From Desulfoscipio geothermicus DSM 3669 (GTDB lineage: Bacteria; Bacillota; Desulfotomaculia; Desulfotomaculales; Desulfallaceae), in NCBI RefSeq assembly GCF_900115975.1, contig NZ_FOYM01000029.1:1-51756 (forward strand): DNA of 51,756 nt, read 5' to 3'. The translations under genes were made by a program, and so were the position numbers. Below, piece by piece: positions 23,733 to 29,671 of the stretch. Below the pieces are notes generated by a model. That model saw only the letters and a program-made list of their open reading frames with translations, did no database searches and was not told where the DNA came from. Position 1 is the first letter of the stretch. The number at the start of each line of letters is the position of its first letter.

Positions 23733-23791
23733 GGTTGATTATAAACGAGATAACAGCCGGTTATACACAAGGGGGGGGAGGAAGACAGCCC

Positions 23792-25876
23792 ATGCAGGAT
23801 GTATTCAGTATTTGTTTGATGTGTACGGTAAGATGTCCAATTAAAGTTATGGTAGAAAATGATGATGTGAAACTGATAGAAGGCAATCCCCACGCTCCGG
23901 GGATTGAAGGCAGCATCTGCCCCAAAGGGGCCGCCGGAGTAAGCCTTTTAAACGATAACCAAAGGCTTGAGAAACCCTTGCTACGCACAGGTCCACGGGG
24001 CTCCGGACAATGGCGCGAGGTCACCTGGGAGGAAGCGCTGGACTACGTAGCTGAAAAACTACAAGAGATCAAAGACAATTACGGGGCCCGCGCCATAGCC
24101 CTAACGGAAAGGGCGCACCTCAACTCGCATATCAGCAAAACTTTCATGCGCGCCATCGGGTCCCCGAACTATTTCACCCATGATGCCTGCTGCAAGGGAT
24201 CGTTGAATACGGCCTTCCGGTCCTTGACCGGCTATACCGATGCCGGCGTGGGAGTGGACCTGGCCAGGACCAAACACGTGATTTTATACGGGCGCAATTA
24301 CTTTGAATCCTTTGAATTGAAAGCGGTTAAACAACTGACTAAAGCCATGGAGAAAGGCGCCAGGCTCACTTACATTGACCCCAGGATAACCGTTACCGCC
24401 ACAAAAGCTGATAAATATTTAATGATCCGGCCCGGTACCGACCTAGCCCTGAACTATGCGCTGATGCATGTAATCATCAAGGAAGGTCTTTACGATAAGG
24501 AGTATGTCAGCCGATGGGTAATTGGTTTCGAGGCACTGAAAGATTTTGTGCAGCCCTACACCCCACAGTGGGCGGAACAGGAAACCGGCATCCCGGCCCG
24601 GGAAATTGTGTCGCTGGCCCGCGCGGCCGGCACGGCCAAACCCGCGGTAATCTTTCATTATGGCTACCGCTCGGCCCATTACACAAACGAAATTTATGTC
24701 AGAAGATCAATTATCATGTTAAACGCCCTGATGGGCAGCATCGAAGCCCCCGGCGGGATATTTTTCAAAAAGGGAGCCAAAGATGCCGGCAAATTGCCGC
24801 TGCGCAAATTAACCGACCAGCAATTGCCTCCGGTAAACGAAGCAAGGTGCGACGGAGCGGGGACACCTCAACTGCCCACCCCCGACCCGGCGAACGGCGT
24901 GGTACAGTTGCTTCCGAAAGTCATTCTGGAGGAAGACCCTTACCCCGTCAAGGGTTTGATCGTCTGGCGGCACGATCCGCTGCTCTCCATTCCTGACTAC
25001 GAATATACCAAGCGAGCCTTCAACAACCTGGACTTTATCGTCGCCATTGACATCAACTTCAGCGAAACGGCCTGGCAGGCCGACGTTATCTTACCTGAAT
25101 CCATCTACCTGGAAAGAGGGGATTCCATCCAAGAGGTCAATGGTTTAAAGCCCGCCCTGTTTATGCGAAAACCGGCGGTTTCGCCCCGCCATGACACCAA
25201 ACCGGGCTGGGAAATTATCAAGAAACTGGCGGAAAGACTGGGTATCGGGCAGTTTTTCCCATACAATTCCCTGGAGGACCTGTGGGCTTACCAGCTGGAG
25301 GGCACCGGCATTACCGTGGAGGATTTTGCGACCACGGGATTTGTAACTCTGACCGAGGAACCCATTTTATGGGAGCGTAGAAACGGCCTTAAATTTAAAA
25401 CACCGTCCGGTAAAATTGAATTTATATCCAGCCTGCTGGAGGAAAGCGGTTTCCCTTCTTTACCCGTATATGAGCCGGTCAACCCCCCGGCGGAGGGCCA
25501 TTTCCGCCTGATGATCGGGAGAAACATCGCCCATACGCATGTTTCCACGCAGAATAACCCTTTGTTAAATGAATTGATGCCTGAAAACCTGCTGTGGATC
25601 AACTCCCGGGCGGCGGAAAAATTAAACATTCAAAACGGCCAAACGGTGGAAGTCATTTCTTCCCGTGGGAAAGATACCATCCGGGCCTTCGTGACGGACC
25701 TGATCCATCCCGAGGCGGTGTTTATGGTCCACGGTTTCGGCCGCCGGGTGCCCGCCCAAACCAGGTGTTTCAGCAAGGGTGCCAGCGATACCCTGTTGCA
25801 AGAAAACATCAGCGACATGATCGGGGGTAGTCCGGCCCTGCAGCATGTATATGTCACCGTCCGGCCAGTTAATTAA
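23792..25876 (+). CDS. Molybdopterin-dependent oxidoreductase (DMSO reductase superfamily), catalytic subunit
   Basis: A 694-residue Mo/W-bis-PGD enzyme. The N-terminal 4Fe-4S motif uses Cys8, Cys11, Cys15 and Cys43 (C-x2-C-x3-C-x27-C). The metal-ligand region reads HDACCKGS with adjacent Cys133-Cys134; a Cys ligand places it near thiosulfate/polysulfide-reductase-like enzymes. The C-terminal dinucleotide-binding domain (about 575-694) is present. No Tat or other signal peptide precedes the first Cys, so it should be cytoplasmic. The ATG at 23792 has GGAGG 10 bases upstream; a TTG at 23735 without such a site is rejected. The following genes supply an electron-transfer chain. Substrate unknown. 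Confidence 0.9.
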   Translation: MQDVFSICLMCTVRCPIKVMVENDDVKLIEGNPHAPGIEGSICPKGAAGVSLLNDNQRLEKPLLRTGPRGSGQWREVTWEEALDYVAEKLQEIKDNYGARAIALTERAHLNSHISKTFMRAIGSPNYFTHDACCKGSLNTAFRSLTGYTDAGVGVDLARTKHVILYGRNYFESFELKAVKQLTKAMEKGARLTYIDPRITVTATKADKYLMIRPGTDLALNYALMHVIIKEGLYDKEYVSRWVIGFEALKDFVQPYTPQWAEQETGIPAREIVSLARAAGTAKPAVIFHYGYRSAHYTNEIYVRRSIIMLNALMGSIEAPGGIFFKKGAKDAGKLPLRKLTDQQLPPVNEARCDGAGTPQLPTPDPANGVVQLLPKVILEEDPYPVKGLIVWRHDPLLSIPDYEYTKRAFNNLDFIVAIDINFSETAWQADVILPESIYLERGDSIQEVNGLKPALFMRKPAVSPRHDTKPGWEIIKKLAERLGIGQFFPYNSLEDLWAYQLEGTGITVEDFATTGFVTLTEEPILWERRNGLKFKTPSGKIEFISSLLEESGFPSLPVYEPVNPPAEGHFRLMIGRNIAHTHVSTQNNPLLNELMPENLLWINSRAAEKLNIQNGQTVEVISSRGKDTIRAFVTDLIHPEAVFMVHGFGRRVPAQTRCFSKGASDTLLQENISDMIGGSPALQHVYVTVRPVN

Positions 25877-25945
25877 TTTTGGGGTTATTACCTAATTTAC
25901 CAACAGTTGACCGAAATTCGGAACTTTTTCAGGGAGGCTGTATAA

Positions 25946-26470
25946 ATGAGCATTTATGCCCTTTTCCAGGATGAGAAAAAATGTATCTCCTGCCGCAGTT
26001 GCCAAGTCCAGTGTAAAATCAACAAAGGTTTGGGCACAGGCCCCAAACCCAGCCAAATAATTGACGTGGGACCGGTAAAAACAGACGGCACGCCCAAAGC
26101 AAGCTACATTTTCATTTCCTGTTTCCACTGTGCGGACCCCTGGTGCGTGCCCGCATGCCCCAACGGCGCCATCCAACAGCGAGCCGAAGACGGCGTGGTA
26201 TATATTGATCACAGCCGCTGCGCCGGCTGTAAGAGCTGCATTATAGCTTGTCCCTGGAGCGCGCCCCAGTGGGATGCCCAAAGGGGAAAAGCGGTAAAAT
26301 GCGATTTCTGCATGGATCGCATTGACGCCGGAATGAAGCCGGCCTGCGCTACCGCCTGTCCCACCGGCTCTTTAAGCTTCGGCCTGGCAGAAAACGTACC
26401 GGAAACTAAACGCGTCCGGTATGCGCATGACCTGGTTGCCAACCAAAACCGCCGTAAGGAAGTGTCTTAA
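25946..26470 (+). CDS. Four-cluster 4Fe-4S electron-transfer subunit (DmsB/PhsB type)
   Basis: A 174-residue ferredoxin-like protein with the four Cys groups of the DmsB/PhsB/HybA family: CISCRSCQVQC (13-23), CFHCADPWCVPAC, CAGCKSCIIAC and CDFCMDRIDAG...CATAC. It should pass electrons between the molybdoenzyme and a partner. In respiratory enzymes that partner is a membrane anchor; none is encoded here, and the next gene is a soluble flavoprotein instead. AGGGAGG precedes the ATG. The stop overlaps the next ATG (TAATG). Confidence 0.92.
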   Translation: MSIYALFQDEKKCISCRSCQVQCKINKGLGTGPKPSQIIDVGPVKTDGTPKASYIFISCFHCADPWCVPACPNGAIQQRAEDGVVYIDHSRCAGCKSCIIACPWSAPQWDAQRGKAVKCDFCMDRIDAGMKPACATACPTGSLSFGLAENVPETKRVRYAHDLVANQNRRKEVS

Positions 26471-28653
26471 TGACTATGAAAGGTTGCCCGGTTAAACAAG
26501 CGGAATATTGGTTAAGAACATTTATTGCTGAACAAAAATATTGCAGTGTATGCCGCCGTTATTTCCATGCCATGCTGGACTACATTGCCGGGATTAGAGA
26601 AGGAAAGGCATCCCCCAGCGCGCTGGATGTCATTAACGAACTGACAGATAAAGTCAACAACTTGTGCCAGTGCGGCCGGGGCAAGGGGCTGGCCGAAAAA
26701 GTTAAAGAATATTTGCAGCAATATAAAGATGATTTTACGGTACATATCGAAAACAGGGTCTGCCCCGCCGCGGAATGCCCCCGGCTGGTTCTGGCACCAT
26801 GCCAGGCGGCCTGCCCCGCCGGCCTTGACATCCCCAACTATGTAACCCTGGTGGGCATGGGAAAATATGCGGATGCATTAAATGTAATTTTGGCTGACGT
26901 GCCCCTGCCGGGGAGCCTCGGGCGCATCTGTGAACATCCCTGCGAAAGGGCCTGCCGGAGGTCGGCAATTGACGAGCCGGTTTCCATTTGCACATTGAAA
27001 AGGGTAGCTTACGACAGGGCAATTGAAAACGGCAGCGTTACCCCTTCCCCACAAGAAAAAAGATATGGTGAAAAAATCGCCGTTATCGGAGCCGGCCCGG
27101 CCGGGCTTTCCGCCGCCTATTTCCTGGCCCGCCAGGGGTACGGTGTCACTATATTTGAAGCCATGCCCGAGCCCGGGGGGATGCTGGCTTACGGCATACC
27201 CCCCTATAGGCTCCCCCGGCAGGTGCTCCGGGATGAAATTGACAAAATAAAAGCCTTGGGAGTGGAAATTAAGCTTAACACCCCCATTGCCGGGGAAAAT
27301 GGCCTAATGAAATTAAAAGAACAGGGCTATGCCGCCGTATTCCTGGGCACGGGGGCCTGGAAAGGAACGCTGCCCGTCCCCAATCCCCGGAAGTTGGAGG
27401 GCGTGCTGGACGGCATCTCTTTCTTGACCTCAGTCAACCGGGCTTTGAACCGGAACGTCAATCTTAAAGAAGTAGACCTCAACGGCAAGCAAGTGCTGGT
27501 GGTCGGCGGCGGAAACGTGGCCATTGACGCGGCCCGCGTCTCCCTGCGCCTGGGGGCCCGGGCAGTGCGGGTCGTTTACCGGCGGACCCGGGAAGAAATG
27601 CCGGCACTGCCGGAAGAAATAATAGATGCAGAAAAAGAGGGCGTTGCTTTTGATTTTCTTGTCTCCCCCACAGCTCTGGAGGGAGCCGACAGCAGGGTTA
27701 CCCACCTGGTATGTTTGCGCAACACTTTGAGCGCGCCCGATGCCGGCGGCCGGCGCAAACCGGTACCGGTGGACGATTCAAAGTTCAAAATGGAAGCGGA
27801 TATGATTATTTTCGCCACCGGCCAGCAACCCGACCTGTCTTTTCTAACCGGAGATGACCGGGCCGCAGCAATAAGCGTCCAGAAAAACCGCATCATGGTG
27901 AACCCGGACACCATGGAAACTTCCCTGCCGGGAGTTTTTGCCGGGGGCGACGCGGTAACGGGACCTGCCTCCGCCATCAAGGCCATTGCCGCCGGGAAGC
28001 GAGCCGCCGCCGCCATCCACGCCTACTTACGGGGACAAAAGCCCTCGGCCGGCATCAAATATCCTGTAAAAAGGCCTAGCCTGCCGCCTCTGCAAACCAC
28101 TGCCAGGCAGAAATCTTCCGCCGGACAGGTTGACGTGCACAGCCTGTATGACAAGGATAAGCAGGGCACCTTCGCGGAAATCGTCCGGTGCGCCGGCGAT
28201 GAGGCCGCCTCGGCTGAAGCGGCCCGGTGCCTGCGCTGCGACATGTGTACCGCCTGTGGCAACTGCGTGAACACCTGCCAAAGCCAGGTAGGGGTCCAGG
28301 CCCTGAAATTAGGTTATGTCTGCGGCAGCGAAGAAGCTGAAACCGATTTCCATTACCCGGAAGAACGGTGCCTGGGCTGCGGCACCTGCTCCGTAAACTG
28401 CCCCACCGGCGCCATTACCCTGGAAGACAGGGACGGTTTCAGGGAGATGCGCATGTGCGGCAGCTTGATGAGCCGCCTGGAGCTGGTTTCCTGCCGGGTG
28501 TGCGAGCGGGCTTTTGCCACTGCCAAACATCTCGATTTCATAAGCGGGCAAATAAAAGACAACCTGCGCCCGGCTTATCACGGTAAAGACGTATGCCCTG
28601 ATTGCGCACGCCGGGCGTGGTCACATAACGTGTTCGGGGTCAGAATCGGCTAA
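26470..28653 (+). CDS. NAD(P)H-dependent FAD/Fe-S oxidoreductase, NuoF-CT-like/GltD-like/ferredoxin fusion
   Basis: A 727-residue multi-domain protein. Residues about 20-95 resemble the NADH_4Fe-4S C-terminal domain of NuoF, but the Cys pattern is C25-x2-C28 with C66 and C68, and the usual third Cys of the first group is missing. Residues 98-185 match the Fe-S domain found ahead of GltD-type flavoproteins. FAD-binding GAGPAG is at 207-212. NAD(P)H-binding VVGGGNVAIDAA is at 344-355, with VVYRR after it, which favours NADPH. Two ferredoxin motifs (CDMCTACGNCVNTC, CLGCGTCSVNC) and a final CRVCERAF...CPDCA pair follow. The layout recalls SfrB of Geobacter and NfnB. Likely feeds NADPH electrons to the two upstream proteins. 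Confidence 0.88.
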   Translation: MTMKGCPVKQAEYWLRTFIAEQKYCSVCRRYFHAMLDYIAGIREGKASPSALDVINELTDKVNNLCQCGRGKGLAEKVKEYLQQYKDDFTVHIENRVCPAAECPRLVLAPCQAACPAGLDIPNYVTLVGMGKYADALNVILADVPLPGSLGRICEHPCERACRRSAIDEPVSICTLKRVAYDRAIENGSVTPSPQEKRYGEKIAVIGAGPAGLSAAYFLARQGYGVTIFEAMPEPGGMLAYGIPPYRLPRQVLRDEIDKIKALGVEIKLNTPIAGENGLMKLKEQGYAAVFLGTGAWKGTLPVPNPRKLEGVLDGISFLTSVNRALNRNVNLKEVDLNGKQVLVVGGGNVAIDAARVSLRLGARAVRVVYRRTREEMPALPEEIIDAEKEGVAFDFLVSPTALEGADSRVTHLVCLRNTLSAPDAGGRRKPVPVDDSKFKMEADMIIFATGQQPDLSFLTGDDRAAAISVQKNRIMVNPDTMETSLPGVFAGGDAVTGPASAIKAIAAGKRAAAAIHAYLRGQKPSAGIKYPVKRPSLPPLQTTARQKSSAGQVDVHSLYDKDKQGTFAEIVRCAGDEAASAEAARCLRCDMCTACGNCVNTCQSQVGVQALKLGYVCGSEEAETDFHYPEERCLGCGTCSVNCPTGAITLEDRDGFREMRMCGSLMSRLELVSCRVCERAFATAKHLDFISGQIKDNLRPAYHGKDVCPDCARRAWSHNVFGVRIG

Positions 28654-28660
28654 AAAAGCA

Positions 28661-28755
28661 AAAATAGGGGACAGGCTCCGTAAAAGGGGGACAGGCACCA
28701 ATTCACAAAACGAATCGGAGCCAGTCCCCTTTTACCGGAGCCAGTCCCCTTTTTG
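28661..28755. repeat. GGGGACAGGCAC-type nested inverted repeat, copy 2
   Basis: Two tandem GGGGACAGGC half-sites (28667-28698) face two CCAGTCCCCTTTT half-sites (28720-28754), making nested complementary arms that end in A and T tracts. It has the same core as the element at 4783-4868. It sits between the convergent flavoprotein and lysR genes and could terminate both. Confidence 0.82.
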
Positions 28756-28766
28756 CTTCCTTATTT

Positions 28767-29671
28767 TTAGGCCAAAATAGGTGTCAGGTCCTGATCCAGA
28801 ATGAATTTGGCGAATTCCGCGCAGGCCCGGGATTGGAATTTTTCTTTGTGGAGCAGCAGGTAAAAACCACGGGTTATGGGGTTACAGCACCTGATCGGTT
28901 TGATGGAACCCAGTTTTAATTCCTTGCGCAGTGTCCACTTGGACAACATGGTGATGCCCAGGTTGGCCTCCACCGCCTCTTTGATGGCCTGGGTGCTGCC
29001 CAGGGTTATGGTATTGGACGGATTAAAATGCAACCTTTCCAGGGCTTGTTCCACCGCCAGCCTGGTCCCGGAGCCCTCCTCCCGGATAATAAACGGCACA
29101 TCCTTTAATTTAACGGCTATTTCTTCCGGGTTTATCGAAGCGCCGGCCAGAGGATGATTTTTGGATACAATCAAAATCAATTCATCATCCAAAAACTTGG
29201 TTATTTCCAGTTGCGGGTCCTCAACCAGACCTTCTACCAGCCCGATATCGATGCTGTTTTCCCTGGCATGTTCGTGCACGTATTCGGTATTGCCGATATT
29301 GACGGAAAACTTGACGTCCGGGTATTTCCTGGTAAAGGCGGCCAAAAGCCTGGGCAATACATATTCCCCCACGGTAAAACTCGCCCCGATGGTCAACTTC
29401 CCGGTGACCAGTTCCACCAGGTCCGACACGGCCCGCTTGGCTATCCTGTGTAATTCCAGAATTTCCGTAGCGTAGCTGTACAGGGTGGCACCCGCCTGGG
29501 TTAATTCAACTTTTTTGCTGGACCGCTCAAAAAGCTTGGCCCCGTAATAATCTTCCAGAGCGTGGATATTCTGGCTAATGGCCGGTTGCGAAATGTTCAA
29601 AGTTTCCGCTGCCCGGGAAAAGTTTTTTTTTCCGCAACGGTGACAAAAATCATTAGCTGGTTGTCAAGCAT
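28767..29671 (-). pseudogene. LysR-family transcriptional regulator, frame split at a poly-A run
   Basis: The long frame (to a TTG at 29600) begins NISQPAISQNIHALEDYYGAKLF, which is the middle of a LysR winged helix-turn-helix, and continues through a complete effector domain. The missing N-terminus is present in another frame: ATG at 29669-29671 with GGGGG upstream encodes MLDNQLMIFVTVAEKKNFSRAAETL once one base is added. The two frames meet at nine A (T at 29623-29631); ten A would give a normal 301-residue protein. It could be a real mutation, slippage-dependent expression or a sequencing error. It faces the molybdoenzyme operon and may regulate it. Confidence 0.85.

Follow-up and report, generated by a model that had tools for sequence, protein, structure and literature searches.

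The window, a 51,756-nucleotide stretch of Desulfoscipio geothermicus DSM 3669 DNA, contains a three-gene operon (CAT-FES-FLV) encoding a molybdoenzyme module of the polysulfide/thiosulfate reductase (Psr/Phs) kind, in which an NAD(P)H flavoprotein takes the place of the quinol subunit. The module is real and conserved, and it is plausible as a catalyst. We consider the chances about even that it serves a dsr-bearing bacterium as a soluble enzyme of the cytoplasm that reduces thiosulfate (sulfane sulfur) with NADPH; we infer NADPH as the donor, thiosulfate as the substrate and a direction of reaction that is probably reductive.

Three ORFs were found where the first-pass annotation had placed one tight operon (23792-28653; Table 1). 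FES and FLV overlap by 1 base, and GGGGGGGAGGAAG precedes the CAT ATG. The annotated absence of a signal peptide from the catalytic subunit was confirmed: CAT carries no Tat signal, and an alternative in-frame TTG start at 23735 would add 19 residues with no RR motif. Analysis by Pfam identified Molybdop_Fe4S4, Molybdopterin and Molydop_binding in CAT, Fer4_11/Fer4_7 in FES, and NADH_4Fe-4S, Fer4_20, Pyr_redox_2 and a Fer4 dicluster in FLV. The 16 cysteines of FES are sufficient for four 4Fe-4S clusters, in accord with its description as a four-cluster ferredoxin subunit. No transmembrane helix-like stretch was detected in CAT, FES or FLV (19-residue Kyte-Doolittle maxima of 1.51, 0.98 and 1.35, respectively), and neither the ORFs nor the Pfam matches of the operon in the window included an NrfD/PhsC membrane subunit, which supports the proposal of a cytoplasmic enzyme without an anchor. 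Promoter and terminator scans gave numbers at chance level. Inverted and direct repeats of the GGGGACAGGC type, resembling a small repetitive element, separate the FLV stop from a convergent gene for a LysR-family regulator. The top match of this regulator was a selenium-metabolism LysR (214.5 bits vs. a cut-off of 250), and some loci of family f1 (F21, L049, L053 and L055) have a relative next to the module.

Table 1. Coordinates of the operon, its functional sites and related loci. Positions preceded by an L number are those of the locus named; all others are window positions.
Feature	Position	Strand	Remarks
CAT, Mo/W-bisPGD catalytic subunit, PsrA/PhsA branch	23792..25876	+	694 aa, no Tat signal
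CAT N-terminal 4Fe-4S ligands C8, C11, C15, C43 (CxMCxxRCP)	23813..23920	+	Invariant in cytoplasmic homologues
CAT Cys134, predicted Mo ligand, followed by Lys135	24191..24193	+	Alignment counterparts: PsrA Cys, FdhF Sec
FES, four-cluster ferredoxin subunit, PhsB/PsrB/DmsB-like	25946..26470	+	174 aa, 16 Cys
FLV, NAD(P)H flavoprotein	26470..28653	+	727 aa, four modules
FLV module 1, NuoF-type NADH_4Fe-4S	26539..26745	+	No FMN/NADH domain; CxxC...CxC; PF10589, 5.6e-8
FLV module 2, Fer4_20 (GltD/DPD N-terminal 4Fe-4S domain)	26761..27033	+	Pfam
FLV module 3, GltD/NfnL-type FAD and NAD(P)H domain	27073..27996	+	Invariant YRRxR (370-374), NADPH-type site
FLV module 4, 4Fe-4S dicluster and C-terminal CxxC/CxxC	28246..28605	+	Similar to FHL subunit HycF
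GGGGACAGGC-type repeats	28658..28755		
LysR-family regulator	28767..29600	-	
Group B PhsA-like and PhsB-like genes heading nuoABCDH... operons	L182 8430-12079; L187 8643-14727; L188 5056-10312; L068 5220-10107; L196 7952-11750		
NuoF-GltD-dicluster fusions beside CAT-FES	L164 4067-7462; L168 10840-14235; L173 11518-15213		1131-1231 aa
Flavoprotein with C-terminal MCP signalling domain, Desulfofundulus	L012 11649-14447		PF00015, 1.5e-19
Full methyl-accepting chemotaxis protein gene	L012 14530-16410		3' of the MCP-bearing flavoprotein
Second four-cluster ferredoxin, Desulfofundulus	L012 5141-5740		64% identical to FES
TauE/SafE and small membrane protein (and Crp/Fnr) without CAT	L206 6044-8975; L208 7330-9222; L215 7417-9323		

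Full-length homology and the predicted cysteine Mo ligand place CAT within the Psr/Phs branch of the DMSO reductase superfamily, where its sequence falls in a separate clade of the family. The best NCBIfam profile was thiosulfate reductase PhsA at 609.5 bits, below the curated cut-off of 694 bits, which was exceeded in 0 of 113 class genomes. Identity to characterised PsrA/PhsA was 34-36%, and the best PDB sequence match was PsrA of T. thermophilus. The AlphaFold model of CAT (pLDDT 92.9) gave PsrA (2vpw) as its top fold match (Z 44.9, rmsd 2.0, 678 residues), ahead of acetylene hydratase (Z 38.3) and FDH (Z about 33). In a tree calculated by a quick method without bootstrap, 60 cytoplasmic sequences formed one clade (SH-aLRT 99) with PhsA as its sister (SH-aLRT 95) and Tat-bearing Psr-like proteins outside, although the exact place of PhsA is unsure because it sits on a long branch. 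Close clustering of CAT with a characterised enzyme, which the first-pass annotation had named as evidence against its reading, was not found. Among the Psr/Phs-like sequences examined, the Tat signal was absent at 40% identity or above, where the homologues start at CxMCxxRCP (7 residues from the N-terminus in CAT), and present below 39%, where the Psr-like proteins have SRRxFL.

Two groups were distinguished, group A with the flavoproteins and group B consisting of CAT homologues that are 40-52% identical and also Tat-less. Cys134 is invariant in both. The residue after it is Lys in group A, as against His in formate dehydrogenase. A formate dehydrogenase had been considered because the partners are NuoF-like; this reading was ruled out by the Cys134-Lys135 pair, which lacks the His, and by the profile scores (300.8 bits vs. 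a cut-off of 666 for the Fdh-alpha profile TIGR01591). The active-site GHR of PhsA is GYR in group A and GWM or similar in group B, and the two groups may therefore differ in substrate.

We surveyed 113 genomes of the class and 395 genomes of Desulfobacterota. CAT homologues at E 1e-100 or better were present in 22 of the class genomes and close orthologues (72-100% identity) in 20, all 20 of which also had an FLV orthologue. The genes were found to stay together, a point that the first-pass annotation had left to such a survey: CAT and FLV were clustered in 19 loci, wherever the contig was intact, and in the exception (G064) the two genes are on different contigs, with CAT at the end of its own. 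FES was located between them where listed in the class regions examined, being masked by overlapping ORFs in the ORF listing of some loci. FLV was broken into two frames in L057 and was matched without the N-terminal module in L067. In Desulfobacterota, we detected about 37 CATs at 59-64% identity and about 70 further CATs at 40-52%, and most of the 59-64% loci examined carried FES together with an FLV of about 720 aa or 1131-1231 aa. The trio is thus conserved in a second phylum as well as across about ten class families, and its occurrence is therefore not due to chance. CAT neighbours in the 20 class loci were FLV, or a TSUP protein and a small membrane protein. A membrane anchor or Tat-bearing paralogue consistently in the operon of relatives had been named as evidence to look for; none was found beside CAT in the 20 class loci and about 20 Desulfobacterota loci. 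In one Desulfofundulus locus (L012), the second four-cluster ferredoxin stands alone near the operon.

FLV was annotated as a three-part flavoprotein of 727 residues. The flavoprotein and its length were correct, whereas Pfam showed at least four modules, because FLV begins with a NuoF-derived 4Fe-4S domain. The best matches of its model (pLDDT 87.8) were the GltD-like subunits, with 4Fe-4S and FAD, of the bifurcating NfnABC and Stn (Z 40-41), and FLV residues ~107-650 correspond to their Fer4_20-GltD-dicluster core. Unlike these enzymes, the window has no NuoF-type FMN subunit or domain (Complex1_51K had no Pfam match in its FLV), and FLV is attached to a catalytic Mo enzyme. A NuoF-like FMN/NAD domain occurs only in some Desulfobacterota FLV fusions; in the 1131-aa form, a full NuoF (Complex1_51K, SLBB and NADH_4Fe-4S) is fused to GltD and the dicluster. 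Because this form carries the full NuoF, the window FLV looks like one that has lost the NADH/FMN part and kept a 4Fe-4S remnant. NuoF-GltD-dicluster fusions were seen beside CAT-FES in three loci, and the N-terminal cysteines are missing from the Desulfobacterota FLVs of ~720 aa, which have lost them. L016 has a separate NuoF-like protein as the partner in place of FLV. The annotated NAD(P)H linkage is supported by the GltD/Nfn core, and we infer a preference for NADPH because there is no variation in the YRRxR motif, where the 2'-phosphate of NADPH is expected to bind. The MCP-bearing flavoprotein in L012 adjoins a complete chemotaxis receptor gene, and redox sensing is a possible role for it.

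In the proposed reaction, hydride would be transferred from NADPH to the FAD in the GltD-like domain of FLV, and single electrons would then pass through the FLV 4Fe-4S clusters to FES, and from FES via the N-terminal 4Fe-4S cluster of CAT to its Mo/W-bisPGD centre. Cleavage of S2O3(2-) at this centre would yield HS- and SO3(2-), the latter feeding into the DsrAB pathway as sulfite. The standard potential of thiosulfate/sulfide plus sulfite is about -0.40 V, so that NADPH would be only marginally suited as a donor without removal of the products. Because CAT belongs to the Psr/Phs branch, the substrate that we favour is thiosulfate or sulfane sulfur. Accordingly, of the annotated cytoplasmic NAD(P)H-fed reductase with an unknown substrate, the location and the NAD(P)H link are supported, whereas the substrate is now narrowed by the branch; PMC13047784 cautions that substrate in the Psr/Phs family is not readable from sequence alone.

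In line with a sulfur substrate, dsrA is present in the window's own genome, and it was detected in 19/20 CAT carriers vs. 56/93 non-carriers (p 0.003 by Fisher's test, with shared ancestry ignored). The sole carrier without dsrA (G032) is an 88% complete genome. The module is an accessory one, because only about a quarter of the dsrA genomes have it. In families f4 and f9, and in the majority of the Desulfobacterota loci examined, CAT has a TauE/SafE family protein (TSUP, PF01925) and a small membrane protein as neighbours, and strong TSUP copies co-occur with CAT in 10 genomes (p 0.0006, with shared ancestry ignored). This linkage was downgraded as substrate evidence because the trio of TSUP, membrane protein and Crp also occurs without CAT and the window's genome has no strong TSUP copy; the adjacency is likewise absent from the window's family. 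The CAT-less TSUP sets often adjoin hydrogenase- or complex I-like genes.

The genome matched to D. nigrificans DSM 574 (G054) carries a CAT orthologue that is 79% identical and is its only Psr/Phs-like gene; the four remaining superfamily members of this genome show 28-31% identity, and most contain an in-frame TGA, a feature of selenocysteine formate dehydrogenases. CAT was absent in the class survey from the genome matched to D. ruminis (G057), a species that uses thiosulfate. D. nigrificans reduces thiosulfate and sulfite, not elemental sulfur (PMC4149029), and Nakatsukasa and Akagi isolated a thiosulfate reductase from it in 1969, as cited in PMC4243691; we found no gene assignment for this enzyme in the literature. 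The enzyme could be something else, because DsrAB itself reduces thiosulfate in vitro (PMC4215793). As D. ruminis lacks CAT and DsrAB can reduce thiosulfate, the use of thiosulfate probably does not require the CAT module.

The view of an undescribed system proved too strong. PhsAB without subunit C has been described in Desulfolithobacter, with D. nigrificans listed among the orthologue holders and with no functional analysis to date according to PMC9751629, and likewise in Desulfobulbaceae (PMC13047784). In D. alaskensis G20, the fitness effect of PhsAB (Dde_1076:1075), which we liken to CAT by name, was specific to thiosulfate but weak (PMC4215793), a weakness that would tell against thiosulfate as the substrate if that PhsA is homologous to CAT, and our likening of Desulfolithobacter PhsA-1/PhsA-2 is by description. 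In Desulfofundulus salinus, PMC11206085 ties a single KEGG-annotated phsA (D7024_03870) to thiosulfate disproportionation; this gene is probably a CAT orthologue, because one PhsA-like gene was found per genome in the surveyed Desulfofundulus-type genomes (family f9). The relevant terms were absent from a D. reducens proteomics paper (PMC4759654). We found no description of an NAD(P)H flavoprotein partner of anchorless PhsAB in the literature, parts of which were available as excerpts. Compared with PhsABC/PsrABC, CAT and FES are homologous over their whole length to the catalytic and four-cluster subunits, and the R of PhsA GHR is kept in GYR; the Tat signal and the PhsC/PsrC quinol subunit are absent, and the partner is a flavoprotein. 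By description, NSR of Thermotoga maritima is also a cytoplasmic NAD(P)H-dependent thiosulfate/polysulfide reductase, but it was purified as a flavoprotein from a single ORF with no Mo subunit reported (PMC9431562).

Group B CAT-FES genes lie directly before complex I genes in L182, L187, L188 and L068, and near NuoB in L196. The pair is placed at the operon head as if replacing NuoEFG. The same order is seen in Desulfolithobacter, with PhsA-1 (GF1_30490) and PhsB-1 (GF1_30500) followed by the Nuo proteins GF1_30510 and GF1_30520, both of which were detected only under thiosulfate disproportionation (PMC9751629). Thermosulfurimonas dismutans has a complex I without NuoEFG (PMC4911364). No description of a PhsA-like sister branch heading complex I operons was found in the literature. 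From this arrangement, CAT-FES may dock on complex I. We tentatively suggest, while holding it to be rather doubtful, that an unrecognised cytoplasmic Psr/Phs branch in sulfate reducers serves as a plug-in thiosulfate (sulfane) cleaving unit, with group A on NADPH/NADH flavoproteins and group B on an 11-subunit complex I, where it would stand in for NuoEFG and where proton motive force and quinol could drive cleavage during disproportionation and supply the missing energy coupling.

Other functions were weighed against thiosulfate reduction. With the same electron path, the Mo centre could reduce polysulfide or protein persulfides in the cytoplasm (sulfane sulfur as S0 or persulfide). The nearest solved structure is annotated as PsrA, and Psr and Phs activities overlap (PMC13047784), but GYR is nearer to PhsA than to PsrA, and D. 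nigrificans, the likely holder of an orthologue, reportedly does not use elemental sulfur; we regard this function as unlikely. The closeness of FLV to NfnABC and StnC, and the full NuoF ahead of the GltD domain in Desulfobacterota versions, would suit an Nfn/Stn-like FAD at which electrons from NADPH divide, some going to the Mo branch and some to ferredoxin or NAD, or at which the two streams join when the reaction is reversed. Since one flavin domain is evident in the window and the non-bifurcating GltD and DPD share the fold, simple NADPH oxidation is favoured, and bifurcation or confurcation is quite unlikely.

Reduction of an organic substrate or one without sulfur (as by an SfrAB-like NADPH oxidase, or a metal or oxyanion reductase) has a comparably small chance, marginally the lesser. 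Many superfamily members have changed substrate, and the likeness to Geobacter SfrAB, by description, lies in a soluble NADPH-linked enzyme whose SfrB is the NADPH oxidoreductase subunit; reports on other organisms describe SfrB as GltD-like or NADPH-linked (PMC9888536, PMC3543383). However, the Psr/Phs branch is far closer to CAT than the ArrA, DMSO and FDH branches, and the gene context is sulfur-related. It is very unlikely that the module runs as an oxidase, reducing NADP+ with low-potential electrons from sulfide plus sulfite (forming thiosulfate) or another donor: redox modules of such kind are reversible and a low-potential donor is thermodynamically sensible at the complex I operons headed by group B, but the operon contains no donor gene, and in dsr-bearing cells DsrAB normally uses up the sulfite.

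Because anchorless PhsAB in sulfate reducers comes with electron partners of its own, thiosulfate reduction or disproportionation could draw on NADPH, NADH or complex I rather than on menaquinol. CAT-FES-FLV is a concrete candidate gene set for the D. nigrificans thiosulfate reductase of 1969, and group B might explain why the complex I of some thermophilic sulfur disproportionators lacks NuoEFG.
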